Below, in pieces: positions 36,491 through 62,686 of a stretch of DNA of 64,000 bases (its first letter is position 1; every line of letters begins with the position of its first letter). The notes under the pieces are model-generated. The model saw only the letters and a program-made list of their open reading frames with translations, was not told the origin of the DNA and made no database searches. The translations under genes and the position numbers were made by a program. The DNA lies in contig NSIM01000001.1 of the NCBI GenBank assembly GCA_002737705.1, forward strand, positions 130,472 through 194,471. Direction: 5' to 3'. The stretch is from Flavobacteriales bacterium. GTDB taxonomy: Bacteria; Bacteroidota; Bacteroidia; NS11-12g; UBA955.

Positions 36491-38569
36491 ATGAAAAAAA
36501 TCTTTGTTAATTTCTCCGTAAGCCCTAAAAATCCTGTGATATTTTTGGCTGTATTGACTTTAATTATACACCCGATTTATGCGCAGAAAACCCCAAAAAG
36601 CAAAACAACTCCTGAGGGCAACACGTCTTTGCTTCTGCCCGAAAATGTAGCAGCGAAGCAGCTAAAAACCTACAAAAAATTTACATTGTTAACGGATACT
36701 GCAAAGCTTAGTGTTGCAGAAAGAACTTGTATTACACATTTGATAAAAGCTGCAGAGATTTTAGATGGCATTTTTTGGAAGCAAACCATTGGTGAAAAGA
36801 AGAATATCCTCGATGGGATCAAAGATAGCAGCGAGCGCAAATTTGCTGAAATTAATTACGGACCATGGGATAGGCTTAACAATGACAAACCCTTCGTAAA
36901 AGGGTATGGACCAAAGCCTTCTGGGGCAAATTTTTACCCAATTGGATTTGATACGGCGACCGCTGATAAAGTGATGAGGTATCTGATTTACGATCCTTAT
37001 ACTGTGGTGCGTGAATTCAAACCCCCAGGCCCACGAGACCTTAAGGCGGTAGATCCTACCAAACCAATTATCCCAGATCCTGCGGGTTTACCCTTTCATA
37101 CAGCGGGAGGAAAAGACTATCAGACCATAAAATACAGTGAATATTATCGTGGAGACATTATCGAAATTGCTGATGAATTGTTGATCGCAAGCACGGCCAT
37201 TGAAAAAGAAGATTCGGCATTTGCCATGTATTTAAAAGGAAGGGCGATGGCGATGATGACCGACAATTATATAATATCTGATATTGAATGGTTGTCTTTA
37301 CAATCGCATTTGGATATTATTATCGGTCCAATTGAGAATTATGAAGACAAATACGCGGGCAGGAAAACATCCTTCGAAGCTTATGTATTGGTTCGCGATA
37401 AAGAATGGGGCGCCAAACTCGAAAAGTTCATTGCATTTCTCCCCGAATTGCAAGCCAACTTGCCCGTAGAAAAAGAATATAAACCAGTATTGAATGCTTC
37501 AACCATCGATGAAAATTTCATCGATGAGCCCATCATGGAAGTAGGTTTTCCACCCATTACAAAACCAAAATCAGCCTTGAGTCAGTTGGCGGTATTTGAT
37601 GTTGTTTATTATGCCGGCGACTGCAATGCTGGAAGTAAAACAATCGCGGTGAATTTGCCGAATGATGAGCGCATTCAGAAATATTTTGGAACCCGCCGTT
37701 CACAATTAAAAAATACCATGCGTGCAAAATTTGAGCACATCGTTTTGCCTATTTCCCTGATTTCGATTTCCCCTTCTCAGCAGGGTAATATCAAATTTGA
37801 TGCTTTCTTTTCAAATGTCATGTTTCACGAAGTGGCGCATGGTTTGGGGGTAAAGAATTTGGTTAATAACAATCAAACCACTGTTCGTGAAGCACTTGGT
37901 GCCGATTACGCGGCAATTGAAGAATGCAAAGCTGATGTCTTGGGATTGTTCATGGTAACACAATTGTTCGATAAGAAGGAACTCGAGGGAAGTATTGAAG
38001 ACTACTATGTAACTTTTGTTGCGAGTGTATTTCGATCGGTTCGTTTTGGGGCATCCTCGGCCCATGGCAAAGCCAATATGATTATATTTAACACCCTGTT
38101 AAAAGCTGAGGCCATTGCTTTGGAGGAAAAAGGTAAGATTGTTGGTGACAATGCTGCTGAAAAAAGATATTACCGGGTGGATGTGATTAAAATGAAAAAA
38201 GTTATTTCCGATTTGGCAACGGAACTACTCATCTTACAGGGCAATGGTGATGCTTTGGGCGTGAAAGATATACTGGATTCTCGGGGAGTAATCGGCAATT
38301 CTTTGGCGATTGATTTAAAACGCATAGAAGTTTCGGGGATTCCTGTAGACCTTGTTTTTAACCAAGGAATTGAAACCCTGGGATTGGGTAAGTACTATGA
38401 GCCCAAAAAGCGCATGTACAACAATATGAATTCTTTGCAGGGGCCGGGGGGTCGTGGCAATCCGGGTGGACCTGGAGGCAATCCGGGTAGGCCTGGAGGC
38501 GCTATTCCTCCAACACCCCGAGGGCATTCCTCCCCTCCAGGGCAACCGATTCCTCCCAATGGGCCTTGA
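36491..38569 (+). CDS. M49 (dipeptidyl-peptidase III)-like zinc peptidase with Gly/Pro-rich tail
   Basis: A 692-residue exported protein (signal about residues 1-31, ending IYAQK). The zinc site HEVAH is near residue 445, with EECKAD about 30 residues later supplying the third ligand. The surrounding VMFHEVAHGLGVKN...TVREAL...AAIEECKADVLGLF matches bacterial M49-like peptidases, where the eukaryotic HELLGH motif is shortened to HExxH. The last 45 residues are a collagen-like run (GGPGGNPGRPGG, then PPTPRGHSSPPG) partly encoded by a 21-base tandem duplication. I know of no such tail as a normal part of the family. The protease gene that follows starts 40 bases later. Confidence 0.75.
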   Translation: MKKIFVNFSVSPKNPVIFLAVLTLIIHPIYAQKTPKSKTTPEGNTSLLLPENVAAKQLKTYKKFTLLTDTAKLSVAERTCITHLIKAAEILDGIFWKQTIGEKKNILDGIKDSSERKFAEINYGPWDRLNNDKPFVKGYGPKPSGANFYPIGFDTATADKVMRYLIYDPYTVVREFKPPGPRDLKAVDPTKPIIPDPAGLPFHTAGGKDYQTIKYSEYYRGDIIEIADELLIASTAIEKEDSAFAMYLKGRAMAMMTDNYIISDIEWLSLQSHLDIIIGPIENYEDKYAGRKTSFEAYVLVRDKEWGAKLEKFIAFLPELQANLPVEKEYKPVLNASTIDENFIDEPIMEVGFPPITKPKSALSQLAVFDVVYYAGDCNAGSKTIAVNLPNDERIQKYFGTRRSQLKNTMRAKFEHIVLPISLISISPSQQGNIKFDAFFSNVMFHEVAHGLGVKNLVNNNQTTVREALGADYAAIEECKADVLGLFMVTQLFDKKELEGSIEDYYVTFVASVFRSVRFGASSAHGKANMIIFNTLLKAEAIALEEKGKIVGDNAAEKRYYRVDVIKMKKVISDLATELLILQGNGDALGVKDILDSRGVIGNSLAIDLKRIEVSGIPVDLVFNQGIETLGLGKYYEPKKRMYNNMNSLQGPGGRGNPGGPGGNPGRPGGAIPPTPRGHSSPPGQPIPPNGP
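38456..38497 (+). repeat. Two tandem 21-base repeats in the peptidase tail
   Basis: Units 38456-38476 and 38477-38497 differ at two positions. Each encodes a Gly-Asn-Pro-Gly-x-Pro-Gly heptad, so the unit keeps the reading frame and can expand or contract without a frameshift. Confidence 0.8.
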
Positions 38570-38609
38570 TCAAGAAAGAATTTTTTATAAAAATGGATTG
38601 TTAAAGTAT

Positions 38610-40706
38610 ATGAGAAGCAGCAAGTGGATTATTGTAACAACAACGTCAATGGTTTTGGCATTGTTTATTTTTTGTAGTAGTAAGAAATTTGATGGAAGCG
38701 ACAATTTTTTGCGAACGCTATTGTTTATGCTCAATGAGGCGCATTATCAATCCAAAGACATTGACAACAAACTATCTGAAGATGTATTTTCCAATTTGAT
38801 TAATAATATTGATCGAGACAAGCATTTTTTTATGCAAAGCGATATCGACCGTTTATCGGAGTATAAAACTGAGATTGACGATCAAATTTTGCTTGGGAAG
38901 TTTGATTTTTTTGATACAACATGGGTGATATTAATTCGTCAGATGAGCCAAATAGAACCCTTGATTGTCTCTTCACTTTCCCAACCGATGAACTACGATG
39001 GGGATGAGAGTTATACAGTGTATGATAAGCCCCAGGGGTTTCATCCAAATTGGGCTTCTCTGAGCACTGATTGGAATAGATGGCTCAAATTTCAAACCCT
39101 TGAACGTCTTTCACGCAAGATTGAAACCCAAAAAAAGGCCAAGGATTCATCTTCTATCGCCAAACAAAAACCTTTTGACACACTGGAATTAGAGGCTAGA
39201 AACGAAACCAAAAAATTCTATACGGATTGGTTTAAGCGATTGCGAAAAATGGATCGAAAGGATCAAATCGGTATGTATGCAAATACGATCTCAGAAATTT
39301 ATGATCCACACACAAACTATTTTCCGCCCGAAGACAAAGAAAATTTCGACATATCAATGACAGGCAAGTTGGAGGGAATTGGCGCAACACTCACCGAGCG
39401 TGATGGATATGTGAAAGTAGAAAAAATTGTTCCAGGAAGTGCAAGTTTTCGTCAGGGTCAGTTAAAGGCTGGTGATTTGATTTTGAAAGTTGCCCAAGCA
39501 GAGGCAGAACCCATAGACATCGTTGACATGAAACTCGACGATGCAATTCAATTGATTCGCGGAAAAAAAGGCACACAAGTTCGCTTAACAGTAAAAAAAC
39601 CCGATGCATCTGTCGTGGTAATTTCTATCATTAGGGAAGTTGTAGTGATTGAAGAAAGTTTTGCCCGCAGCGCGATCATGAAATTCAATAACAAGTTTTA
39701 TGGATTAATATACTTACCCAGTTTTTATGCTGATTTTAGTCAGCGAGGTCGGGGTCGAAATTGCGCTGGAGATGTAAAAATAGAAATTGAAAAATTGAAG
39801 AAGTCGGGTGTTTCTGGGATTGTCTTGGATTTGAGGAATAATGGGGGTGGCAGTTTGGCAGATGCAATTGAGATGGGCGGACTGTTTATACCCCAAGGGC
39901 CCATTGTTCAGGTTAAAGATATGCGGGGAATTGAAGTCCATACAGACAGAGACCCCATGGTGAATTATAGCGGACCACTCATTGTTTTAACCAATACCTA
40001 CAGCGCTTCTGCCTCTGAAATATTGGCTGCTGCCCTCCAAGACTATGGTCGAGCGATTATATTGGGCAATAAGAGTACGTATGGCAAGGGAACGGTTCAA
40101 ACCTTTGTTCCCCTTGAAGAAGGTTTGATAACAGAGAACTTTCCAAGAGGATATGGTCAGTTAAAAGTGACCATTCAGAAGTTTTATAGAATCAATGGAG
40201 GAACAACCCAATTAAAAGGGGTTGAGTCTGATGTGGTTTTGCCCGATGTTTACGATGGAATCGACCAAGGTGAGAAAGAAATGGATTTTCATCTGGCGTA
40301 TGACAAAATTCCCGCTGCAGCGTATAAACCTTATAATACGTACAAGGAAATAAATCGCAAGAAGGCAATTGAAATTGCCAAAAAACGCATTCTAAAAAAC
40401 GAGTATTATAATTTGGTTGCTAAGCGGGCCATTGAATTGTCTGAAGTGCGCAAAAAATACACGTATTCACTGAATTTGAAGAAATTTGAGGTTCAACAGG
40501 GAATGATGAGAGCAATGGATAAGCCCCTTCGGGATTACAAATACCACAGTATATGCGATACTTTAATGGCGTTAGAAGAAGACATGAAATACGTAAATAA
40601 CGACGCCACCAAAAAGGCACAAAAATTGGATTGGTTGAAGCGTTACAGAGAGGATGCTGGTTTTGACGAGGCTGTGCAGATTTTGAACGATTGGGTTGAT
40701 AAATAA
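38610..40706 (+). CDS. Carboxy-terminal (tail-specific) processing protease, S41 family
   Basis: A 698-residue periplasmic protease. A hydrophobic N-terminal segment (WIIVTTTSMVLALFIFC) anchors or exports it; the cysteine may be lipidated, though the box is imperfect. An N-terminal Prc-like domain (DPHTNYFPPEDKENFD) is followed by a PDZ domain (VEKIVPGSASFRQGQLKAGDLILKV). The S41 core has GIVLDLRNNGGGSL, the nucleophile in SASASE near residue 466, and the general-base lysine in STYGKGTVQ near residue 492. I use ATG 38610, because the upstream frame runs inside the preceding gene. It is probably co-transcribed with the M49-like gene. Confidence 0.92.
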   Translation: MRSSKWIIVTTTSMVLALFIFCSSKKFDGSDNFLRTLLFMLNEAHYQSKDIDNKLSEDVFSNLINNIDRDKHFFMQSDIDRLSEYKTEIDDQILLGKFDFFDTTWVILIRQMSQIEPLIVSSLSQPMNYDGDESYTVYDKPQGFHPNWASLSTDWNRWLKFQTLERLSRKIETQKKAKDSSSIAKQKPFDTLELEARNETKKFYTDWFKRLRKMDRKDQIGMYANTISEIYDPHTNYFPPEDKENFDISMTGKLEGIGATLTERDGYVKVEKIVPGSASFRQGQLKAGDLILKVAQAEAEPIDIVDMKLDDAIQLIRGKKGTQVRLTVKKPDASVVVISIIREVVVIEESFARSAIMKFNNKFYGLIYLPSFYADFSQRGRGRNCAGDVKIEIEKLKKSGVSGIVLDLRNNGGGSLADAIEMGGLFIPQGPIVQVKDMRGIEVHTDRDPMVNYSGPLIVLTNTYSASASEILAAALQDYGRAIILGNKSTYGKGTVQTFVPLEEGLITENFPRGYGQLKVTIQKFYRINGGTTQLKGVESDVVLPDVYDGIDQGEKEMDFHLAYDKIPAAAYKPYNTYKEINRKKAIEIAKKRILKNEYYNLVAKRAIELSEVRKKYTYSLNLKKFEVQQGMMRAMDKPLRDYKYHSICDTLMALEEDMKYVNNDATKKAQKLDWLKRYREDAGFDEAVQILNDWVDK

Positions 40707-48056: not shown

Positions 48057-51000
48057 ATGAAACGGATAAAATTTTTTGTTATTGCATTTACACTGGTACA
48101 AATAGCCATTGCTAGGCCTGTCGTAAACCTGAATGGCAGGGCAAATACAGGCCGCTTGGATCGCAGGTCAGGTCAAATGGCCAATACCTGTGAGCCTGCA
48201 TCACAAAGTGCCGACTTGGATGTGAACAATGTGCGAACCAAACTCCTTAATGGTGGAGATATGTGGTGGGATTTAAACAACCCAAAATATGAAATTCCCA
48301 AAATAAATGATCCGAATGCAGTTCGCAAACATTCCTTGTTCTCTGGGGCTATTTGGATTGGTGGAAAGGACAACGGAGGGAGTTTGAAATTGGCAGCGAT
48401 GACCTATCGTCAAAGGGGTTCTGATTTTTGGCCAGGGCCGTTGGATACCACAACTGCCGCCACTGATCCCTTGCGTTGTAAAGCGTATGATAAAATGTGG
48501 AAGGTGACGCGTGATGAGCTAGAAACATTCGAAAATAGCAAGTACCTTACCCAAAGTGCTGGTATTAGAGACTGGCCTGCCGGGCGTCAGCGTGCAGTCT
48601 TAAACGGCAATGAAGCCAAATATTTAGCGCCGTACAAGGAAATCACGCCAGATGGCGTTTACAATCCGTTTGATGGAGAACATCCTGTTTTGGATGACCG
48701 ACGTCCCTCTATTGATAACGGTGTTGAGAAACAGCCTGATATGTTTATTTGGTGGGTTTACAACGACAAAGGCAATATTCATTCTGAAACCCAAGGCCAG
48801 CCTATTGGCGTTGAGATTCAAACTACGGGGTTTGCATTTGCAACCAATGACGAAGTAAACAACATGACTTTTTACAGTTCAAAAATTATCAATAGGGGTT
48901 TTACAACCTTAAATGATTGTTATATGGGCGAGTGGGTAGATGCCGACTTGGGTAATTATGCCGATGATTATGTGGGGTGTGATGTGGGGCGGAGTTTGGG
49001 TTTTTGTTATAATGGGGATGATGACGATGAAGGTGTGTTAGGGTATGGATTAAACCCCCCTACTATCGGAGTAGATTATTTTGAGGGCCCAACGGATTCA
49101 GTAGGCAATCAGATGGGTCTTAGCCACTTCATGTATTACAATAACGACCAGAATGCTGTAAGTGGAAATCCGGGCGATGCAATTGAATTTTATAATTTGA
49201 TGCAGGGGAAATGGCTTGGTGGACAAAATGTTACCTGGGGTGGTACTGGTTTTGGGGGAAGTAGGCCAGCCAAGTATATGTTTCCTGGGGATACAGATCC
49301 AGAACATCTAGGCGAATCTTGGACAGAAAAGAGTTCGGGCAATAAACCCGGTGATCGTCGTTTTATTCAATCTACCGGCCCATTTACTTTGCGTCCCGGA
49401 CAAATACAGCGTATAACATTGGGTGTGGTTTGGGCCAGAACCACCAGTGGGGGTTCTTTGGGGTCTTTAAATTTGTTGCGATTGGCTTCAGACAAAGCCC
49501 AAACCTTGTTCAATAACAATTTTAAAATATTAGATGGTCCCAATTCGCCTGATATCGAAATTCAAGAATTGGAGCAAGAATTGGTGTTGAAATTTCTAAA
49601 TACAAATTCCAGTAAAGTTGAATACTATAAGGAAAAATACAAGGATGCAAAAAACCAATTTCGAACTTACAAATTTGAGGGGTACCTGGTATATCAATTA
49701 AAAGATGCAACCGTAAGCACTACCGATCTTGAAAATGTTGACAAAGCCCGTTTGTTGTTTCAATGTGATGTAAAAAACAACCGTGCACAAATTATCAATA
49801 AAGTGTATGATCCAAAGTTGGCAACCCTTATTCCAGTCGAAAAAGTTGACGGAGCTGACAAGGGTGTTCAACACACATGGAGCATTAAAAATGATCTGTT
49901 TGCCACCATTGCCAATACCCAACTTGTCGATTTTAAGCCAGTCTATTATCTGGTTCTCTCCTATGCTATATTGGCTGATGATACCCTGCAATTAGATCCC
50001 AACCAATTTTTGGCTGGACGTCGAAATATTAAAGTTATTAAAGCCATTCCCCACAAAAGCGAGCCTGAAAATTTTGGAACTGAGCTTAATTCTATTTATG
50101 GTGGTGGACCAGAATTAATGCGCTTGTCAGGACGGGGAAATGGAGGGAATGAATTGAATTTTACCAAAGAAACCCTCAAAGAAATATTGGAAAAAAATGT
50201 GAGTTCCAAGCCAGTTTACAAGAGTGGAACAGGTCCAGTAAAAATTAAAGTGGTAGACCCGCTCAAAGTTCCAAATGCAAAATTTGAGTTTGTATTCAAA
50301 GAAAATAAAATATCTCTAGCCTCTGGATTGAAAGATTCAATGACCAAAAATACCAAATGGTTTATGGTGAAAAAGGGCGAAAATGGAGCCAATAATGACA
50401 CCATTTTTTCTGATACAACCATTGCATATCGGTTTGAATCAGTTCAAGGAAAGAAAGGAGCAAACAATGCAACCAAACAAACCTTGGCCGACTGGGGGTT
50501 GAGTGTAGAGGTTGAGCAAATGTATAATCCAGGTGAGAATTCCACGGCAGACCCTTCTAATGGATTGTTGAGCTGGACTTTAGAATGGGAAGACAATGGC
50601 AAGCAATGGCTCACCGCCATCAATGACAATGATGGCCAAAGTACAGAAAATGCGGGTGCATTATGGCTAAATTGGATTCGTGGAGGTAGCAATGGCAGGG
50701 GAGGCACATTCAATCCTTTGATTCATGATTTTTTCAATCAGGATGGATCTGCTGTTGATCCGGGCCAGGCATTTGAAAGAATTTGGGGTGGTAGAATAGC
50801 TCCTTATGGAATGGTCGCTCGTGAAAAAATGACAGCCACAGGCCGAAACACCTTCGGGTTTGCTTGGTGGGGAAATTCCAGTGGATTGCAAAATCCGATC
50901 AGTGAATTGGCCAGTATTGAATTGGTAATCACGCCCGATAAAACCCTGTGGACGCGATGTCCAGTTATTGAAATGGCTGACGATGAAATGAAAAATAGCG

Positions 51001-51944
51001 TGCAAGGTCAAATGGGTAAATTTAACATGCGTTGGGGCAATTCCAAAGATAAAAATGGCAATGAGATTGCAGGTAGTCAGGGTTTGGGTTGGTTCCCAGG
51101 GTATGCCATCAACATGGAAACAGGTGAACGTTTGGCATTGGCTTTTTCTGAAGATAGCTACTTGGTAGGTGAAAATGGCAGAGATATGATTTGGAATCCA
51201 ACCGATAAGGTTTACAATGACAATGGAATATACCCTGCGATGGGTGGTAAGCACTTTATTTATATTTTTGGAACTGGACTAACTGGTATCTCCAGGAATG
51301 TAAGGGGAGAACGCTATATGGGTGAAGATGAGGCAAATTTTCAACGTTTCAAAACTGCATTGTTGCCAACAGCCGCCGGTGGAAGTACCAATACACTTGA
51401 TAAAACAAGACTTTTAACCCAAGTAATGTGGGTAATCCCAACCTATATGGCCCAAGGATTCTCAATGAAAGATGGGATTCCACCCACCACTGTCAAGTTT
51501 AAAATCAATATTCGAAAAGCCTATACAAGTTTTGATGCAGGCAATAATGTAAACAACAATCGCCCAATGTATGAATTTGATGCTGCCAGTATTGCCCCCA
51601 AGATTTCAAATGATATCGGCAAGAAAAACTTGGATTTGGTTAATGTTGTGCCCAATCCATACCGAGGTTACAGTGCTTACGAAAATAGTCCGCTCGATTC
51701 AAGGGTTAAAATCACAAATCTGCCACCAGAATGCACCATCTCAATTTTTGATATGGCTGGAAATCTGATTCGCAAAATTAAAAAATCTGATGACAATACT
51801 TTTTATGAGTGGGATTTGAAAAATGGGAGCAATGTGCCTATATCCAGCGGATTATATTTGATTCATATCAAAACAAAAAATTTGGGAGAAAAGGTAGTTC
51901 GGTGGTATGGAATAATGCATGCAATTGATTTGGATATTTATTAA
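48057..51944 (+). CDS. Large T9SS-secreted protein with C-terminal sorting domain
   Basis: A 1295-residue exported protein: signal peptide about residues 1-19 (ending IAIA), then a conserved-looking head (LFSGAIWIGGKDNGGSLKLAA, FWPGPLDTTTAATDP). The final 95 residues form a type A-like sorting domain: VPNPYRGYSAYE, VKITNLPPECTISIFDMAGN, WDLKNGSNVPISSGLYLIHI. This marks it as cargo of the type IX system. I recognise no enzyme domain, and a surface or matrix role is a guess. It is the second gene of the operon between the TonB receptor and the PorV-like gene. Confidence 0.75.
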   Translation: MKRIKFFVIAFTLVQIAIARPVVNLNGRANTGRLDRRSGQMANTCEPASQSADLDVNNVRTKLLNGGDMWWDLNNPKYEIPKINDPNAVRKHSLFSGAIWIGGKDNGGSLKLAAMTYRQRGSDFWPGPLDTTTAATDPLRCKAYDKMWKVTRDELETFENSKYLTQSAGIRDWPAGRQRAVLNGNEAKYLAPYKEITPDGVYNPFDGEHPVLDDRRPSIDNGVEKQPDMFIWWVYNDKGNIHSETQGQPIGVEIQTTGFAFATNDEVNNMTFYSSKIINRGFTTLNDCYMGEWVDADLGNYADDYVGCDVGRSLGFCYNGDDDDEGVLGYGLNPPTIGVDYFEGPTDSVGNQMGLSHFMYYNNDQNAVSGNPGDAIEFYNLMQGKWLGGQNVTWGGTGFGGSRPAKYMFPGDTDPEHLGESWTEKSSGNKPGDRRFIQSTGPFTLRPGQIQRITLGVVWARTTSGGSLGSLNLLRLASDKAQTLFNNNFKILDGPNSPDIEIQELEQELVLKFLNTNSSKVEYYKEKYKDAKNQFRTYKFEGYLVYQLKDATVSTTDLENVDKARLLFQCDVKNNRAQIINKVYDPKLATLIPVEKVDGADKGVQHTWSIKNDLFATIANTQLVDFKPVYYLVLSYAILADDTLQLDPNQFLAGRRNIKVIKAIPHKSEPENFGTELNSIYGGGPELMRLSGRGNGGNELNFTKETLKEILEKNVSSKPVYKSGTGPVKIKVVDPLKVPNAKFEFVFKENKISLASGLKDSMTKNTKWFMVKKGENGANNDTIFSDTTIAYRFESVQGKKGANNATKQTLADWGLSVEVEQMYNPGENSTADPSNGLLSWTLEWEDNGKQWLTAINDNDGQSTENAGALWLNWIRGGSNGRGGTFNPLIHDFFNQDGSAVDPGQAFERIWGGRIAPYGMVAREKMTATGRNTFGFAWWGNSSGLQNPISELASIELVITPDKTLWTRCPVIEMADDEMKNSVQGQMGKFNMRWGNSKDKNGNEIAGSQGLGWFPGYAINMETGERLALAFSEDSYLVGENGRDMIWNPTDKVYNDNGIYPAMGGKHFIYIFGTGLTGISRNVRGERYMGEDEANFQRFKTALLPTAAGGSTNTLDKTRLLTQVMWVIPTYMAQGFSMKDGIPPTTVKFKINIRKAYTSFDAGNNVNNNRPMYEFDAASIAPKISNDIGKKNLDLVNVVPNPYRGYSAYENSPLDSRVKITNLPPECTISIFDMAGNLIRKIKKSDDNTFYEWDLKNGSNVPISSGLYLIHIKTKNLGEKVVRWYGIMHAIDLDIY

Positions 51945-51953
51945 TAATTAGAA

Positions 51954-53069
51954 ATGATGAATCGCAAACAAAAGAATATTCTTTTTGCTGGCTTGTTGGT
52001 TTTTGGCTTGTGGGGCAATGTATTTGCTGGTAATCCCGAGCGTCAAGGGCAGGCAGGTGCAGCACAACTTACCATTAATGGCTGGGCGCGTTCTAGTGGA
52101 ATGGGTTGGGCAAATGGCAGCAGCATCAAGGGTGCTGAGGCCATGTTTATGAATGTTGCAGGGCTGGATCGTTTTCGAAATAAGACAGAAATGGTTTTTG
52201 GCCGTACAGAATGGCTAATGGGATCGGGCATTGCCATTAACAATGTTGCATTGGCCCAGAAGCTAGGCGATGAGGGTGATGGGGGAACCTTTGGATTGAC
52301 TGTCATGCAATACAGCATTAAACCCATTGATATTACAACCGAACAAAATCCCTATGGAGGTATTGGAACCTTTCGTGTGAGTATGTCAAATATTGGATTG
52401 GCGTATGCAAAGAGTTTTAGCAACAATATTTCAGCGGGTATAATTGCAAAAATGGTATCTGAGGGAATTCCAGATGCCAATGCATCAGGCATTACGTTGG
52501 ATGTAGGGGTTCAATATATTTCTACATTGCGTCCTGTTCAAGGAAGCATTAAAAAAGATGATTTTAAATTTGGTATCTCAATGAAAAATATTGGTCCAGA
52601 CATGACCCATACTGGTGACGGATTAAGTTATAAAGGAATTTTACAAAACGGAACTTTTACAAAAACCATTCAGGTAAAGGTTGATCCAATAAAAATGCCT
52701 GCGTTACTCAATATTTCTGCTTCGTATGATATACGTTTGGATAAAGACCCCAATCAATACGACAACCGTCTGACCATGGGATTTGGTTTTACAAACTTTT
52801 CTTACAGTGCCAATCAACTTACCTTTGCTGCAGAGTATTCATATAAAGATTTTCTTACTGTTCGGGGTGGGATTCTTTACCAAGGGGGTATTTTTGCAGA
52901 AGAAACACGCAGTTCTGTTTTTACAGGACCCATGGCTGGTTTAAGTTATGATTGGAAAATGGGAGAAGATGGAAATGTTGTAAGTTTGGATTATAGCTTC
53001 AGGGCGACCAATCCCTTCAATGGGGTACATTCGTTTGGTGTTCGCATTGGTTTGGGAAGTGCCGAATAA
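51954..53069 (+). CDS. PorV/PorQ-family outer-membrane protein
   Basis: A 371-residue outer-membrane protein with a signal peptide (cleavage near NVFA). GNPERQGQAGAAQLTINGWARSSGMG minus its ends is the hallmark opening of this family, followed by GAEAMFMNVAGL. Late strands (FKFGISMKNIGPDM and FLTVRGGILYQGG) recall the FadL-like barrel. PorV shuttles T9SS cargo from the SprA translocon to the attachment complex. The operon position directly after a T9SS cargo gene suggests a dedicated shuttle for it; that is inference. The ATG is 9 bases after the cargo stop. Confidence 0.8.
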   Translation: MMNRKQKNILFAGLLVFGLWGNVFAGNPERQGQAGAAQLTINGWARSSGMGWANGSSIKGAEAMFMNVAGLDRFRNKTEMVFGRTEWLMGSGIAINNVALAQKLGDEGDGGTFGLTVMQYSIKPIDITTEQNPYGGIGTFRVSMSNIGLAYAKSFSNNISAGIIAKMVSEGIPDANASGITLDVGVQYISTLRPVQGSIKKDDFKFGISMKNIGPDMTHTGDGLSYKGILQNGTFTKTIQVKVDPIKMPALLNISASYDIRLDKDPNQYDNRLTMGFGFTNFSYSANQLTFAAEYSYKDFLTVRGGILYQGGIFAEETRSSVFTGPMAGLSYDWKMGEDGNVVSLDYSFRATNPFNGVHSFGVRIGLGSAE

Positions 53070-54019: not shown

Positions 54020-54046
54020 AAAAGTTTTATCCTTTAGAAATTTGAG

Positions 54047-54054
54047 TAGGTTTG
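54047..54054 (+). promoter_or_regulatory. -7 promoter box upstream of the lgt-like remnant and holB
   Basis: TAGGTTTG ends 6 bases before the ATG at 54061. It would drive both the small ORF and holB. Confidence 0.55.
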
Positions 54055-54060
54055 TATCCC

Positions 54061-54240
54061 ATGAAACCTGAGGTATTCTATTTTACCAGCCTGCATATGT
54101 ATGGTTATGGTTTCTATATCCTGTTGGGTGTTATTTTTGCCCACTCCCATTTGTGGGTTAACCGAAAGCAATTAACAATGGATACTGAAGGCATTGGCGC
54201 AATTATGCTGCGCAAAAAAAACACCATTACAATACCATGA
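54061..54240 (+). pseudogene. Short ORF resembling the N-terminus of prolipoprotein diacylglyceryl transferase
   Basis: Fifty-nine residues. The first 45 (KPEVFYFTSLHMYGYGFYILLG, then DTEGIGAIML) look like the opening and first membrane helix of Lgt, where S/TYGF-hydrophobic and LDxDxI elements recur. The rest of that about 270-residue enzyme is absent; after a short unrelated tail the frame stops in the TGA that overlaps the holB ATG. The promoter box is intact. It is probably a 5' remnant that now serves as leader ORF for holB. A genuine small membrane protein is the alternative. Likeness is by eye only. Confidence 0.45.
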
Positions 54241-55352: not shown

Positions 55353-55424
55353 TAATTGGGTATGAGGCAACCCAAAGGGATGAAATTTCTTCTTTGGTCT
55401 AAAGCCTTACCATGATTGTGAAGA

Positions 55425-55961
55425 ATGACAAATCAGCAAGAGCCAAAAGCCAACCAAGTATTGAGGGATTGTATTGCAGGAAATCGCAGTGCCCAATATA
55501 CTTTATACCAGCTTTTTGCCCCCATTGTGTATGCCATTTGTTTGCGTTATATGGGCCAATCTGATGATGCCAAAGACATGTTGCAAAATACCATGATAAA
55601 GGTTTTTCAAAAAGCGGAAGAATTCCGTTTTCAAGGCTCTTTAGAGGGTTGGGTTAAGCGCATTGCTGTGAATACCTGTTTGGATCAATTAAAACAGAAA
55701 AAAAATATTTTTATCGATGGCTTAGAGAGTGCCGAGAAAATCAGTGGAGATGTAAACGCATCGCATATCTTAGAAGCCAAAGATTTAATGCACTTGCTTT
55801 CTGTATTGCCTGTCGGGTATCGAATTGTATTTAACTTGTATGCCATTGAAGGGTATAGCCATGCCGAAATCGCAGCCATTTTAGGCATATCGGAGAATAC
55901 CAGTAAAACCCAATTGTTTAAAGCACGCAAATCACTCCAAAGTAAACTAGAGCGCAATTAA
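55425..55961 (+). CDS. ECF RNA polymerase sigma factor (partner of the downstream membrane protein)
   Basis: A 178-residue sigma factor. Region 2: SAQYTLYQLFAPIVYAICLRY, DAKDMLQNTMIKVFQKAEEF, LEGWVKRIAVNTCLDQLK. Region 4: LPVGYRIVFNLYAIEGYSH, EIAAILGISENTSKTQLFKARKSL. Its TAA overlaps the next ATG (TAATG), so translation is coupled to the membrane protein, as usual for sigma/anti-sigma pairs. The 72 bases after holB contain a small hairpin (TTGGGT/ACCCAA at 55356-55375) but no T tract. Confidence 0.9.
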   Translation: MTNQQEPKANQVLRDCIAGNRSAQYTLYQLFAPIVYAICLRYMGQSDDAKDMLQNTMIKVFQKAEEFRFQGSLEGWVKRIAVNTCLDQLKQKKNIFIDGLESAEKISGDVNASHILEAKDLMHLLSVLPVGYRIVFNLYAIEGYSHAEIAAILGISENTSKTQLFKARKSLQSKLERN

Positions 55962-57223
55962 TGGAAGAGGGCCTTAAGCATATCGACGAACTTTTTCAGC
56001 AACACTTACAAAATGCCATTGTTGAGCCCCCCACAGGTATTTTTGAGCAGTGCATTCAACATCTCAATACCGGTTCTGTTGGAAATGCAAACCCCTTAAG
56101 TCAAACTGTTTTGTCACAGGGAAAGCAATTGGCACTGGCTTCTATAAAAGCCCATATTGTATCGATTTTGGGAGTGGGCATTGTGGCTGTCACAATTGGA
56201 CTTACAGCCTATTTTTTGTCAAAAAAGCAATTGGGAATCCCGTCTAATGTATCTTCAGAAACAGCCATCGTCAAGCCTGTATCAGTGAGTCCAAAAGAAG
56301 GATTGTCGGCGCATTCCAAGCCCGTAAATGGTAGAAACCAAAAGATCCTTGAACGTCAAATTCTCAAAGCAGAACAAGTGGATATTGACAGGCAAGCACC
56401 GAACGCTTCGGGCAGTAGTATGTACAACAATACACCCAAAAAATTAAATGCTAAACCCCATTCAGATCATGTGCAAGCTCAAAACACCTACGAAAAAAAT
56501 GCGAATGTGTCAGGGCATATTTCCAGTAAAATAATCACAAAAACTGAATTTGCGGGCAATCCACCCACTGGTCTTTCGAGCCATGGCAAGTTGCCTGTTC
56601 TACAGGGTGGGAAAACACCCACTGCTGGATCAAATGCCAGCATGATCCATGTTGGCTTGCAGAATAGCATTTGCAATGCTGTTTGGAAGCCCAAGGTAAT
56701 AGACTTTCCCGCGAATGCATTTGAAATTGCCATTGAAGGACAAGCAAACAGTGTATGTATTGATTGGGGTGATGGGGTCAAATCAAATCAAATTTATTGG
56801 CATCAATACCTTGTAGAACACAACCGTAAATTTAACGTGAAGGTGGTAAATACCTATGTTCTTTCAAGCAACGGACACATTAAAACCTGTAAAGACAGCC
56901 AATATTTGCTGATCTCAGCGCAACCCCAAAACGAATTTGTAGGAAATTTTATTCCCGATGTGTTTACCCCGAACGGAGATGGGTTAAATGAAGAATTTTG
57001 GGTAAATATGGCCCAACCTGCCTTGTTTGATTTGTCTATTTACGATACCCAAAACCGCACTGTTTTTCGCACCTCAAATTTCTTTGCCAAGTGGGCAGGA
57101 AATTGTGGTTCAAACCCCTGTTTTCCCGGCACATATCGTGTGGTTATCGCCTATAAATACAGCGGTGATACAGAGTGGAAATATCACCGAAAGCCCCTAA
57201 TATTATTGTACAAAAACAATTAA
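55961..57223 (+). CDS. Putative anti-sigma factor with a periplasmic PKD-like region and T9SS type B sorting domain
   Basis: A 420-residue single-pass membrane protein. Residues 1-60 are cytoplasmic, and the membrane helix is about 64-87 (AHIVSILGVGIVAVTIGLTA). A polar, low-complexity linker runs to about 225. A PKD-like unit follows (VCIDWGDGVKSNQIYWHQY), then a CHU_C/gliding-type sorting domain from about 327 (FIPDVFTPNGDGLNEEFWVN, LFDLSIYDTQNRTVF, FPGTYRVVIAYKY). Coupling to the sigma gene argues that the cytoplasmic part binds the sigma factor. No standard anti-sigma domain is recognisable. There is no cleavable signal peptide, so the sorting domain should stay tethered in the periplasm. 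Confidence 0.7.
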   Translation: MEEGLKHIDELFQQHLQNAIVEPPTGIFEQCIQHLNTGSVGNANPLSQTVLSQGKQLALASIKAHIVSILGVGIVAVTIGLTAYFLSKKQLGIPSNVSSETAIVKPVSVSPKEGLSAHSKPVNGRNQKILERQILKAEQVDIDRQAPNASGSSMYNNTPKKLNAKPHSDHVQAQNTYEKNANVSGHISSKIITKTEFAGNPPTGLSSHGKLPVLQGGKTPTAGSNASMIHVGLQNSICNAVWKPKVIDFPANAFEIAIEGQANSVCIDWGDGVKSNQIYWHQYLVEHNRKFNVKVVNTYVLSSNGHIKTCKDSQYLLISAQPQNEFVGNFIPDVFTPNGDGLNEEFWVNMAQPALFDLSIYDTQNRTVFRTSNFFAKWAGNCGSNPCFPGTYRVVIAYKYSGDTEWKYHRKPLILLYKNN

Positions 57224-57315
57224 ATACGAACTATGAAAGCATGTAACGAATTTGGTAAGCCAAGCAATTTTGAAACAAATCAACCTGATATTTTGGCGAA
57301 TCGGGTAAAAATTTA

Positions 57316-57323
57316 TATTTTTG
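57316..57323 (+). promoter_or_regulatory. -7 promoter box for the PKD-rich surface protein
   Basis: TATTTTTG matches TAnnTTTG and ends 29 bases before the ATG at 57353. It lies within the longer possible frame from 57233, which argues against that start. Confidence 0.5.
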
Positions 57324-57352
57324 ATAAATTGCATAATGTAAACACAACGAAC

Positions 57353-60300
57353 ATGAAAGGTTTTAACAGAATAGCAAAAGGTTTGCTGATGGGTTTGGTA
57401 GTAATTTTTACCTATATCGGCGATGTTTCTGCCCAGTGCTCGATCTCTTCTGATGGGGCACCCTGTGTGGGATCTCCTATCCGTTTTTACGGATCGAATA
57501 CGGGCACCACCCACGATTGGGATTTTAATGGTGAAAACACCCAAACTGGTTTAAAAAACGTGAATTATGCATTTAAAACTGCCGGCAGCAAGACAATCAC
57601 TTACATCACGACCATCAATGGCGCAAAGTGTACAACATCGTTGGCTATTGTAGTGTTTCAGCCTCCTACCATTAAGCTAAAACTACAAAATCTTTATGAG
57701 CAGTGTTTTGAGAAAAACTTATTCTGTTTTATCGATAGTTCATTTTCCAAAAACAAGAAAAAAATAACCAATATCACCTATTTGGTGAGCGATGGACAAT
57801 TGTTTGATTATACCAATCCTACATTGCCTCAAACATTTTGTTTTTCAATTAAAGATGAACGTGGTGGGCTGTTTGATATCTATATTGAGGTAACAGATGA
57901 AAATGGATGTGTATCAAAAGACACCCTTAAAGGGGTGGTTAAAGTCAGAGAAAAAATAGGTGCACGTTTTACCAGTAACAAACCTGTTGCGTGTGATAGC
58001 GTTACAGCAATCATCAAAAATATTTCTCGAATCGATAAAAGTCAGGTTAAAAAAATCACTTGGTATTGGGGTGATGGCACTACCAGCAGTGAGTGGGGTC
58101 CAGATATCAAAAAGAAATTTTATGGCCAAGGAACCTATACCTCTAAAGTGGTCATTGAAACGTTCGATGGGTGTAAAGATTCCTTTACAGTGGTGGCCTC
58201 GGCACAGGTCTTCAAATCTAAGGCCAGGATAATTGCAGATAGAGACTCAGCGTGTATGTCAGATTCTAAAATTGCTTTTAATGTAGACCAAATTCCCAGT
58301 GGAGCCACTGGATTACTTTGGGTATTCGGGGATGTAAATACTGGTCCAAGGAATTTTGACAATAGAACTTGGTCTCCAGAGCACATATTTTCTGGATTGG
58401 GCCCTTTCCAAATAAAACTCACATACAGCCATCCTGTTTGTGGCAATAAAACCGCCTTAGACACAATTATTATATTGGGTCCTCTTTCCATGATTGAGGC
58501 AGGACCTGGCAAACGATTGGCTGAATTTGAAGTGTTTCAGTGTCCCAAGGATGTAATGGATACAGTGCATTTCAAAAACTTTTCGATGTTTTACCACAAC
58601 GACAAAAATTTTACTGATGACGACAGTACTTTTTATAAATGGAATGGCACATTGGGCCACACTTTTAACAACGCCCAAATATGGAGAAAGCGTTGGAATT
58701 ATAATGCCACACCCTCGCAAGGAGGAGGAAATGATCCCCAAAAAAGACAGCGTGTTTGTGCGGTGCGTTTGTGGGATTTTAGCGATGGATATACGCCAAA
58801 ATGTACTACAGATGTAACCCGTAACAAGAATGTCTTTGTAAATTGTAATTTTTCTCGCGATTCCCTGCCATCGCATTATTACAAGTCATGGGATTTGGTG
58901 ATGTTGCAAGATTTTAAAAATGCGCCCATGGAAGATGCAATCTTTATCAAGAAAACGGGTTTGTGTAAAAAAATTCAGGTATGGGCTTCTGATACCCTTG
59001 TTGTCGTAAGAGATTCTATTTTGTTTATTCCAAAAGACACCGACGATTCTTCCACTGCCAATAATCCCAAATATGCCAATTCAATAAAGAAATTTGTTCC
59101 TTACAAATGGTTGAAAGGCAAAGGAGAGCGGTTGGTAGAAGATTCTGTAACCATTGAGTTGGGAGCAAATGATTCGGTGTTTATTAACAATAAACTGTAT
59201 GTTGGTCCTAAAAAAGTATTGGCAAAAGACAAGGATTTAATTCGATTAACCAGCAAAACAGACTCTGTAAAGTATCTCTTCTCAACCTATACAAGGTATG
59301 ATACATTGCCGATGCCCTTTCTTCAAATTAGGATCAAAAAGGGTGAAAATCCAAAGGTTATTAAAATCTTGCTCATGTCTCAAATGGGCAGATTTAGGGG
59401 CTTGAACTACGGAACGGATTACATAATAAATTATAAACGCTTCAGAGATCTTTATTATGCAAGAATACCCAGTTGCAATGCCGTTAGGTTAAATCACAAA
59501 GACACTTGTCATCCCATGCAATGTGAAAATACAGCCGAAAAAATATTGGCCATGCTACACGCAAATGCGGGTGGCGTTGGTTCGGGGTTGCTTAAAACTT
59601 CAATTGAATGTTTGGGAGCCAAAAATCCCCAATATGGTATCACTTTTATCTTAAGTGACTTAAAGCCGGGTTGTACCTTTTCGGATGTACAGATCAATTT
59701 TGATTCTACCTGCAATCCAAATGGTTGGGTTGCTCTTAGTGGTTTAAGTGGTGGCAATCGACCACCAGGTCCTCCTTACCCAGGATACCAGCCTGCAGGA
59801 AATCCGCCCAGTCGATATTCAAAACAATACAGTGCAGCTCAAGTCTGTGACCCTAGTGGCTGTATTACGGTGGGTATTGTTGTAGGAAACGGTGTTAGGA
59901 AGCCCGGAACATTTGCTCCACCAACGAAAGATCGGCCTATGTGTTCAGATACACAATGGTATAGACGTTTTGCTTGTTTCCCTTTGATTGATCCTGCTTT
60001 TGAGGTGATGACCCCCTTGCCGAATCCCAACAATATTCGCAAGATGTGTAAAGGAGAACCGGTAATTGTGCGGCCAATACCTGCAAATAAAACCCGCACT
60101 GACGATTTGAAAACCTTGCGTTGGTCATTTGAAACAGGCAATGCTTGCCCATCATATTCAAGGGGTTGGCGCAGGTTTATTCAGGAGGATTATTACAGGT
60201 ATAAAAAAGTACCGGGCAAAAACCCGAACTATTTATACAGTTATATGGTTCAAACTAGGGGCGGGGAAGATCCTGTTCAGGTTCCTTGTACTGATATTTG

Positions 60301-62686
60301 GAATGATGGCAATACCAAACTTTTCAAAGGACCAGACACAACCTATACCGCTGAAATTAGGGCCTGGCAAGTAGGTGCCGATGTTTCAGATGTATGGGAT
60401 TTAATAAAGGAGAGAGTTGAAGCCCGTGGATTTGATCCATTCTCTCTTACAGGTCCTCAAATTGCCGAAATGATTTGGAATCAAAAAGGGGTAATAGGTC
60501 AACCTTCAACTGGCGCATATGGATGTGTCGATACCACAGGATTTGGTAGATTTATTAAATATTACATTGTGCCAAATTCAGACAGTATGCGTATCTTAAA
60601 TTTGCGGGACTCGAGTATTCGTCCAACAGATATTGAAACCGTTAAAAATGTAAAATACAGTGCATACAAGTTTGTCCCCAAGTGGAGTGGTTATCATATA
60701 ATTAGTTTGGCGATGACCTCCTCAAATGGAAAATGTGATGACATTGCTGCGTTTCCGGTTATTGTTGGTTTTGCCATGGAATTAGAACTTCCCGATAGCA
60801 TCGTATGCCAAGACCAAGCAACGAGTCTGGAGGCATTGCCTAAATACAAAATGTTCCATCCAGATCCAATCAATTTTGGAACATGGGATTATACAGACTA
60901 CTGGAGAGATCCTGTTCGACAGGCAGAAACGGCCCAAGGTTTTAAAAATCGTGAACCTTTTACCAAATGGGATTGGAGCAAAGCTGATGACGACAAGAGT
61001 AAGCCCGTTACCATATTTGGAGGACAACCTTGGGGAGGAACTGGCGTAGGAACAATTTTATCTCCTTGGGTTGATTTGGGTGGCGGTGGATCTTTGGCTA
61101 AATATTATAAAGATGACTCTGGAGTGTATGTTTTCCGAAATGTTGCTGGAGATAGTACTGGATGTTTGGATACAATTGAGCGAAGATTGTTTATTTCTCG
61201 TTTGGATGTGATGTTTAATCTGAATGTCAGAACCCCAGAATGTAATTCAATCATTGAGTTCTTTGACAGCAGTTATCTGTTTGATCCTTGTAACTGGGCC
61301 ATTAAAAACTGTAACGGACCTACACCCATCACCTGTGACTATATCAAAGAATGGTTTATTGATTGGGGCGATTCCAAATCCAACTTATTTAAACGATCTG
61401 CTTCAAATCAGTCTGGATTACCCGACCGCATAGCCCATAAATATAGTCGAAATGGGTGGTTTAAGATTCAATATCGTTTGAAAACGGATCAAGGTTGTGA
61501 AGACACATTCAGTCGCTGGTTAAAAATACCTGGACCAAGACCTAAGTTTGAGTTTACGACCAAAGCGGGAAATACGGTTACCATTTGTGAAGGGGATAGC
61601 CTCCAGTTTACGAACCTCACCGATAGTGCAACAACCTCTGCCGATTGGACTTGGTTCTTTGGTGATGGGGTTATAGACAACAAAAAAGATCAGTTTTTAT
61701 GGCATAAGTATAACAAACCGGGTAAGTTCTACGTATTTCTAGAACAGTTTGATTCTTTGTTTATACCTCCGAATATTCGCAAGTATTGCGATGAATCTTT
61801 TCCTGATACGCCAAACCAAGCAGCCTTTATTGTAACAGTGTTGCCCCGTGACACAGTGCGTGGATTTTTATTGAAGAAGTCCATCTGTATTGGAGACAGC
61901 AATACATTTATAGACAACTCGGATACCATATTCAAATCGTATAGGTGGAAGTTTCACAACCTTAGCACCGGTCAAATTGACACTGTAACCACCTCGTCTA
62001 AATCGATCAGTTGGCGGTTTACGCAAGCGGGAAATATTCGGGTTTCACATTTTGGCGATTACAACCCAAATCGACCGCGACCTTGGTGTCCAACCAAAGT
62101 TGCTGATATGTTCTTCTTGGTAGATTCTGTTGTCTCTGATTTCAGCATCGATTCCTCGAAAACACCCGATTACACCTATACACGCACCGATATCAATGGC
62201 ACGAAATGGAGATGGGGCTACAAGCACCAGAATAATATTAAGTTGACCAAAGAACCCTTGAATGTCGATTATAATGGCGAAGAGAAGATCGTTAAAACAT
62301 CGTACAGCGGAACAGATACTTTCTGGGTTTGTTTAGAAGTTACCAATCCTACTGGTTGCAAAGACACAATCTGTAAACCTGTATACGTCAATCAGTTTAT
62401 TTATTTGTCCAATGTATTTACCCCTGGCGACGAAAATGGAAAGAATGATGTTTTCCGTGTTCCAATTGCGGGTCAGTCTTTGTTTGAAATGCGTATATAC
62501 AACCGATTTGGTGAAAGGGTTTTCAAAACAACGGATCCCAGTATTCAATGGAATGGAAGGGTTAACAACGACGGCCCAGAAGTACCATCGGGTACCTATT
62601 TCTACCAATTGACTTACCAATTCAAAGGGAAGCCAAAAGTAAATAAGGTTAATGGTTCCGTGAATTTGATTCGCAATGCACCTTAA
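57353..62686 (+). CDS. Giant PKD-rich surface protein with gliding-type (CHU_C, T9SS type B) sorting domain
   Basis: A 1777-residue exported protein. The signal peptide (FNRIAKGLLMGLVVIFTYIG minus its end) is cleaved near VSAQ. Several PKD-like units can be seen by their W-x-F/W-G-D-G signature: WDFNGENTQ near the start, TWYWGDGTTSS, WVFGDVNTG, FIDWGDSKSN and WTWFFGDGVIDN. Many cysteines are spread through it. The last 90 residues are the CHU_C sorting domain (LSNVFTPGDENGKNDVFRV, FEMRIYNRFGERVF, VPSGTYFYQLTYQFKG). It should be exported by T9SS to the surface, as an adhesin or gliding component; no enzyme domain is evident. It directly follows the putative anti-sigma gene, which ends in the same kind of domain. 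Confidence 0.85.
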   Translation: MKGFNRIAKGLLMGLVVIFTYIGDVSAQCSISSDGAPCVGSPIRFYGSNTGTTHDWDFNGENTQTGLKNVNYAFKTAGSKTITYITTINGAKCTTSLAIVVFQPPTIKLKLQNLYEQCFEKNLFCFIDSSFSKNKKKITNITYLVSDGQLFDYTNPTLPQTFCFSIKDERGGLFDIYIEVTDENGCVSKDTLKGVVKVREKIGARFTSNKPVACDSVTAIIKNISRIDKSQVKKITWYWGDGTTSSEWGPDIKKKFYGQGTYTSKVVIETFDGCKDSFTVVASAQVFKSKARIIADRDSACMSDSKIAFNVDQIPSGATGLLWVFGDVNTGPRNFDNRTWSPEHIFSGLGPFQIKLTYSHPVCGNKTALDTIIILGPLSMIEAGPGKRLAEFEVFQCPKDVMDTVHFKNFSMFYHNDKNFTDDDSTFYKWNGTLGHTFNNAQIWRKRWNYNATPSQGGGNDPQKRQRVCAVRLWDFSDGYTPKCTTDVTRNKNVFVNCNFSRDSLPSHYYKSWDLVMLQDFKNAPMEDAIFIKKTGLCKKIQVWASDTLVVVRDSILFIPKDTDDSSTANNPKYANSIKKFVPYKWLKGKGERLVEDSVTIELGANDSVFINNKLYVGPKKVLAKDKDLIRLTSKTDSVKYLFSTYTRYDTLPMPFLQIRIKKGENPKVIKILLMSQMGRFRGLNYGTDYIINYKRFRDLYYARIPSCNAVRLNHKDTCHPMQCENTAEKILAMLHANAGGVGSGLLKTSIECLGAKNPQYGITFILSDLKPGCTFSDVQINFDSTCNPNGWVALSGLSGGNRPPGPPYPGYQPAGNPPSRYSKQYSAAQVCDPSGCITVGIVVGNGVRKPGTFAPPTKDRPMCSDTQWYRRFACFPLIDPAFEVMTPLPNPNNIRKMCKGEPVIVRPIPANKTRTDDLKTLRWSFETGNACPSYSRGWRRFIQEDYYRYKKVPGKNPNYLYSYMVQTRGGEDPVQVPCTDIWNDGNTKLFKGPDTTYTAEIRAWQVGADVSDVWDLIKERVEARGFDPFSLTGPQIAEMIWNQKGVIGQPSTGAYGCVDTTGFGRFIKYYIVPNSDSMRILNLRDSSIRPTDIETVKNVKYSAYKFVPKWSGYHIISLAMTSSNGKCDDIAAFPVIVGFAMELELPDSIVCQDQATSLEALPKYKMFHPDPINFGTWDYTDYWRDPVRQAETAQGFKNREPFTKWDWSKADDDKSKPVTIFGGQPWGGTGVGTILSPWVDLGGGGSLAKYYKDDSGVYVFRNVAGDSTGCLDTIERRLFISRLDVMFNLNVRTPECNSIIEFFDSSYLFDPCNWAIKNCNGPTPITCDYIKEWFIDWGDSKSNLFKRSASNQSGLPDRIAHKYSRNGWFKIQYRLKTDQGCEDTFSRWLKIPGPRPKFEFTTKAGNTVTICEGDSLQFTNLTDSATTSADWTWFFGDGVIDNKKDQFLWHKYNKPGKFYVFLEQFDSLFIPPNIRKYCDESFPDTPNQAAFIVTVLPRDTVRGFLLKKSICIGDSNTFIDNSDTIFKSYRWKFHNLSTGQIDTVTTSSKSISWRFTQAGNIRVSHFGDYNPNRPRPWCPTKVADMFFLVDSVVSDFSIDSSKTPDYTYTRTDINGTKWRWGYKHQNNIKLTKEPLNVDYNGEEKIVKTSYSGTDTFWVCLEVTNPTGCKDTICKPVYVNQFIYLSNVFTPGDENGKNDVFRVPIAGQSLFEMRIYNRFGERVFKTTDPSIQWNGRVNNDGPEVPSGTYFYQLTYQFKGKPKVNKVNGSVNLIRNAP

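Follow-up and report, generated by a model that had tools for sequence, protein, structure and literature searches.

A membrane-tethered candidate anti-sigma factor in Bacteroidia that ends in an altered type B sorting domain of the type IX secretion system

The window examined here, a stretch of 64,000 nucleotides from a Flavobacteriales bacterium, carries a gene for an ECF sigma factor followed directly by a gene for a single-pass membrane protein whose C-terminal CHU_C domain is a divergent form of the type B C-terminal sorting domains (CTDs) of the type IX secretion system (T9SS). The reading that we favour, with a confidence slightly above even, is that this protein is a Dma-like anti-sigma factor, that its envelope-side domain is a retained, altered type B sorting domain and that the sigma factor controls type B cargo. 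The anatomy, the homology, the conservation, the motif loss, the autoregulatory promoter and, in one family, the type B regulon all appear well supported by sequence analysis.

The sigma factor gene (55425..55961, + strand) encodes 178 amino acids with matches to Pfam Sigma70_r2 (2.3e-15) and r4_2 (3.3e-17). Its stop codon TAA shares bases with the ATG of the tethered-CTD gene at 55961 (TAATG). This second gene (55961..57223, + strand) encodes the membrane-tethered anti-sigma factor candidate of 420 amino acids, an assignment based on the overlap and on a conserved architecture. Gene 3 of the operon (57353..62686, + strand) encodes a giant secreted PKD protein (PKD_4, 68.7 bits). Its type B CTD (62405..62626, + strand) is canonical, with YNRFGE and GSVNLIR intact and a CHU_C match above both cut-offs (Pfam 55.8 bits, TIGR04131 40.1 bits). 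The succession of sigma factor, single-TM CHU_C protein and giant CHU_C protein is thus present, TAATG overlap included, as described in an earlier note on this DNA. The 1777 residues given there for the giant hold when counting starts at an internal ATG (57353), which begins a signal-peptide-like segment, but the reading frame itself is open from 57233 (57233-62686, 1817 codons from the first ATG). The genome measures 1.9 Mb and contains 16 CHU_C matches, nine sigma-family matches, one SprA and four PorP/SprF homologues. None of these four lies in the window.

The tethered protein can be divided into five parts, all encoded on the + strand. Residues 1-40 (55961..56080) make up a cytoplasmic domain that is predicted to bind sigma and is recognized by the motif hIDeLF..hL....PP.g.fe and a profile match. 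The N-terminus comprises about 65 mostly hydrophilic residues, followed by an uncleaved-looking TM segment, and there is no Sec signal peptide. The transmembrane helix is placed at residues 66-84 (56156..56212; hydropathy 2.17), with the model helix at 75-86. Then come a disordered tether (residues 87-226, 56219..56638) with pLDDT below 50 almost throughout, a PKD-like beta domain (residues about 240-320, 56678..56920; pLDDT blocks 81-92) and the tethered type B CTD (residues 328-417, 56942..57211), identified by Pfam PF13585 (CHU_C) and motif comparison. The AlphaFold model consists of helices 6-17 and 27-36, the TM helix, the disordered region 87-226 and two beta domains. As to the PKD-like unit of the earlier note, the model provides a confident beta domain and a homologue (L124) has a Pfam PKD_4 match, but the window copy has no Pfam match there. 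The CTD scores 37.2 bits with Pfam CHU_C (cut-off 27) and 20.9 with TIGR04131 (cut-off 35); since it is above the former and below the latter cut-off, we regard it as a divergent CTD.

It is the N-terminus that connects this protein to a known framework. Dma proteins, as published, possess a sigma-binding domain, a TM helix, a disordered tether and a barrel (PMC13088901). The barrel-type relatives found here, whose C-terminus matches PF13568 whereas that of the window protein is CHU_C, agree with this description, from which their likeness to Dma1-3 is drawn. Comparison of the N-termini of tethered-CTD proteins with those of the outer membrane (OM)-barrel, Dma-like proteins by hhalign gives a probability of 98% (E 1e-13), against less than 2% in column-shuffled controls. 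Across the C-terminal types, profile comparison joins the N-termini at 96-99% probability, with column-shuffled controls at most 5%. Like Dma of Bacteroidota (PMC13088901), the window protein is encoded beside an ECF sigma gene and has a predicted N-terminal sigma-binding domain, one TM helix, a long disordered tether and a folded envelope-side domain. Unlike Dma, it ends in a T9SS type B CTD instead of an OM beta-barrel, and its predicted output is T9SS cargo instead of vesiculation or glycan-use genes.

The pairing of sigma and anti-sigma factor proposed earlier is strengthened by the conserved overlap or close linkage of the two genes and by the N-terminal domain held in common with Dma-type proteins. 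The tethered protein is thus a candidate anti-sigma factor on the grounds of position, homology and anatomy. A survey found class I anti-sigma domains adjoining only 6% of Bacteroidetes ECFs (PMC7406223). In a fused sigma/anti-sigma model of a homologue (L070), where both proteins lie in one frame and the sigma stop, read as Q, forms an artificial link, the ASD helices reach pLDDT 82-95, versus 61-75 for the window protein alone. The higher confidence agrees with folding on sigma, although it is not proof, the compared proteins being different ones.

Conservation of the arrangement in dozens of genomes rules out chance. CHU_C matches to the tethered protein occur in 14 of 14 same-genus genomes; in most of these the sigma/TM-CTD pair could be read directly, and the giant gene comes next wherever the contig reaches. 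The orthologous sigma genes at the same position are 39-93% identical, and in most genera of the family the giant recurs as the third gene with 55-94% identity. A near full-length match to the tethered protein is found in 58 of the 108 genomes of the order. In a second family of the order (L057-L059, L066) the order of the trio is kept while the neighbours are entirely different, indicating that the trio moves as a unit. Within the tethered protein, conservation is found in the first 40 residues and in the CTD, whereas tether identity falls to 7-13% beyond the closest relative; in this nearest relative the CTD is 91% and the tether 54% identical.

The genome search for ECF genes followed by single-TM CHU_C proteins, as advised in the earlier note, extends the family further. 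With a second profile, 59 of the 395 genomes of the class, from about 13 families, proved to encode tethered-CTD proteins of near full length. All 30 tethered-CTD loci inspected lie after an ECF sigma gene, and each product has one TM segment. Among 16 larger stretches inspected, 7 have a gene for CHU_C cargo, 637 to 1837 residues long and from several families, as the next gene; adjacent cargo is absent beside many class members of the tethered-CTD family. Scanning 84,980 species on the basis of the sigma factor yielded 80 loci, at which the gene after sigma almost always encodes a single-TM protein with the common N-terminal motif. The C-termini vary: Bacteroidales have an OM barrel, two groups have CHU_C, and other types occur elsewhere. 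Two independent origins of the tethered CTDs were considered but not adopted: the sigma tree gives two clades, but a single clade is not rejected (p-AU 0.33). Nor does the tethered CTD look like a copy of the neighbouring cargo CTD, its identity to its own cargo being not above that to the best other cargo.

The tethered CTDs differ systematically from those of cargo. In cargo CTDs the sequence [FY]NRWGE is present, and a G precedes the last strand. The tethered ones usually have D for N and are missing the R and the aromatic residue of NRWG; in the window copy DTQN replaces NRWG and the last-strand G is lost. Of the cargo rows, 38 of 43 retain the aromatic residue, versus 3 of 51 tethered rows, a contrast that is if anything understated because two of the "cargo" rows in the motif table (L023, L062) are misfiled tethered proteins. 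In a second set of tethered loci the aromatic is kept in none of 30, the G of NRWG in 18 and the last-strand G in 11, so that only the loss of R and W is general. The motifs FTPNGDG.ND, W.G and G.Y are present in cargo and tethered CTDs alike. Paillat et al. describe five conserved motifs, each of them needed to secrete the type B CTD of SprB in F. johnsoniae (PMC12618676); the lost NRWG and last-strand G would be their motifs B and E. In sum, the tethered protein resembles T9SS type B cargo (SprB-SprF, PG1035-PorP; PMC12618676, PMC9143113) in a C-terminal domain that is CHU_C by Pfam, though below the TIGR04131 cut-off, and that keeps FTPNGDG.ND, W.G and G.Y, but it is fixed in the membrane without a cleavable signal peptide, and its CTD lacks NRWG and, as in many tethered CTDs, the last-strand G. 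It also differs in that no shuttle gene adjoins the tethered-CTD gene, such adjacency being common, though not universal, for type B cargo.

Structure comparison is consistent with this assignment. Residues 514-601 of the homologue L070 match NucA's substrate domain as seen in a T9SS complex (8glk chain D) with Z 9.2 (VIA-align), superposing at 1.9 Å over 72 of 75 residues, and PorZ (5m11) with Z 9.1 (VIA-align). Other Ig-like domains reach Z 9.0 against the same CTD, and hence these matches support a T9SS-CTD fold but do not single out the family. Foldseek with the window protein returned no match below E 1e-3. The description of the domain as a cargo mimic agrees with a T9SS-CTD fold that is kept and an NRWG that is lost only in the tethered copies. 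Nevertheless, the NRWG change may mean that the CTD no longer meets T9SS parts at all.

A predicted autoregulatory ECF promoter, GGCAACC-N15-TCTTCT (55366..55393, + strand), precedes the operon and is conserved at fixed spacing. CAACY-N18-TCT is found at identical spacing upstream of all 24 orthologous sigma genes in the order, those with differing flanks included, with a chance expectation of 0.0008 per shuffled upstream. A similar element precedes many related sigmas of other groups. The element has a single match in the window and five in the genome, the sole intergenic one being that of its own operon. Control of the T9SS machinery by the window sigma left no sign in this genome and was rejected, the other four matches lying inside genes and none being a machinery promoter.

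A regulon emerges in another family, f21, which is probably Crocinitomicaceae since one of its sites is identical to a site of Fluviicola chungangensis. There, cargo is usually not adjacent to the sigma and tethered-CTD genes. The pattern TGCAACYTTT-N14-GTCT, derived from sigma upstreams alone, has 94 sites in the 80 genomes searched, versus 21 for the reversed pattern; shifting the spacing by three bases leaves 4 sites, all within genes. Sigma genes lie downstream of 38 of the 94. At the sigma sites inspected the tethered-CTD gene follows in 40 of 42, the other two running off contigs. Among the non-sigma sites, at least 31 of 56 are located just upstream of an operon with type B cargo as gene 1 or 2, in genomes where type B genes number about 34, or roughly 1% of genes. 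The binomial probability of this enrichment is below 1e-28 even at a 4% background, a figure that overstates certainty because related genomes are not independent. The sites are spread over many genera and different cargo families, and every complete CTD of the target cargo has NRWG or DRWG. It appears, as far as sequence patterns tell, that an anti-sigma factor with an altered cargo CTD controls cargo with intact CTDs. This regulon was seen in f21, a family other than the window's; the window genome has a single credible site, that of its own operon. A regulatory tie to type B cargo is supported in several families by the operon to which both belong and in another by the promoters that they have in common; the link to CTD cargo drawn earlier is seen as a common operon in the window and as a promoter common with type B cargo in f21.

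Two further features of these target operons may be recorded. One type B cargo gene that carries the sigma's promoter, at L347 (G503), has a GldM-like gene 106 nt after it, which may point to a link with T9SS machinery in that genome. At L256, L257, L310, L342, L353 and L354 the cargo targeted by the promoter is encoded by the second gene, the first encoding a small secreted protein (about 120-130 amino acids).

How the CTD might act is a more tentative matter. We lean, with a confidence somewhat short of even, towards a feedback switch operated by decoy cargo, in which a tethered, export-defective signal competes with cargo for the type B receptor and sets the amount of cargo. The two-helix N-terminus would hold sigma at the inner membrane, and the disordered tether of about 140 residues would allow the CTD to extend to the outer membrane. 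At this site the CTD would dock on the cargo-CTD receptor, either the SprA translocon or a shuttle of the PorP/SprF type, but would not itself be exported. Its state, docked or displaced by cargo, would be passed to the N-terminus and set sigma release. We infer the binding of sigma, the docking to the cargo receptor and the release step with its sign; that docking sets release is proposed because the CTD looks like a non-exportable version of the regulated cargo's own signal. In the direction that we favour, sigma is released when an unoccupied receptor catches the CTD and is held when saturating cargo dislodges the CTD. Cargo synthesis would therefore follow export capacity. The tethered CTD would, on this inference, sense T9SS or shuttle occupancy, which suggests that a decoy label lets cells match surface-protein synthesis to export.

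The main rival, to which we assign an appreciable but clearly lower probability, is a gauge of strain or integrity like Dma1/2, spanning the envelope, in which the CTD only anchors the anti-sigma factor to an OM or surface partner. Rather than export occupancy, it would sense the spacing of the envelope, damage to the OM or the loss of the giant surface protein. The N-terminus, TM helix and disordered tether are indeed the same as in barrel-type proteins, and the window genome has two further sigma/TM pairs with barrel-like C-ends. Moreover, type B CTDs stay on PorP/SprF at the cell surface (PMC9143113), which would amount to a barrel anchor in two pieces. However, a pure anchor leaves the type B cargo regulon unexplained.

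The same regulon bears on a more conventional possibility that we judge improbable, an ordinary anti-sigma factor under regulated proteolysis whose signal enters via the PKD-like unit or the tether, the CHU_C fold being a leftover. The window copy does fall below the TIGR04131 cut-off, and many related anti-sigmas have quite different C-termini. Against this, few parts of the protein are as well conserved as the CTD, FTPNGDG, W.G and G.Y are kept throughout the tethered CTDs, and the promoter of the sigma factor points to CTD cargo. Retention of the fold and of several motifs would also suit release coupled to export, with a logic like that of FlgM: cleavage near the inner membrane, export of the CTD fragment by the T9SS and liberation of sigma. 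The long linker could be cut, and the window also encodes a tail-specific protease (38454-40706), with nothing linking it to the operon. But the NRWG of cargo is lost in essentially all tethered CTDs, and secretion of the SprB CTD needed each of its five motifs (PMC12618676), which makes this the least probable of the readings, and an unlikely one.

Setting the decoy mechanism beside other T9SS-linked regulators, the parallel drawn earlier was PorA-PorXY-SigP of Porphyromonas gingivalis (PMC7712824). There, too, a CTD protein stands upstream of a T9SS-linked ECF sigma factor, but the analogy is a loose one: PorA is located at the cell surface and acts on T9SS machinery genes by way of a two-component system, whereas here the CTD belongs to the anti-sigma candidate itself and the predicted output is cargo. 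The SM6 promoters of Flavobacterium psychrophilum (PMC9723704) likewise tie an ECF sigma/anti-sigma pair to T9SS genes by a common promoter. Their targets, however, are machinery genes (gldN, porU), and that paper describes no CTD on the SM6 anti-sigma. We found no description of a CTD-bearing anti-sigma factor in the literature searched, which left out most subscription papers. The claim of a new design can be kept in part, in that the sensor and regulon logic look new; the Dma framework is already known, and the protein is thus a variant of it.

Little is known of how Bacteroidota match the synthesis of very large surface proteins to T9SS export, or of how signals pass over two membranes to ECF sigma factors. 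The present finding assigns candidate anti-sigma factors in many families, with one N-terminal framework bearing interchangeable envelope-side domains (barrel, CTD, others) and a promoter motif that predicts regulons. It also makes a testable claim, namely that a secretion signal has been reused as a sensor. If true, the decoy switch would couple cargo synthesis to secretion capacity across Bacteroidia.

Other loci of this genome and its relatives deserve mention. A second trio (L192:903-5446, C23) comprises a sigma factor, a single-TM anti-sigma-like protein of 517 amino acids with a barrel-like C-end and no Pfam match, and a T9SS cargo with a type A CTD (Por_Secre_tail, DUF7619). A third sigma gene is paired with that of a 471-amino acid single-TM protein, again with a barrel-like C-end (L191:1770-3726, minus strand). 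In the window, 2.4 kb upstream of the sigma gene, a 1295-amino acid protein with a type A CTD (PorZ-like C-end) is followed by a PorV/PorQ-family gene (48057-53069), an order kept in most genera of the family. At 54020-54236 a multi-TM gene of roughly 260 amino acids, which in most relatives is flanked by the HIT gene on one side and the pol III delta' gene on the other (e.g. L064:9984-10766), is missing both here and in the nearest relative (L067).
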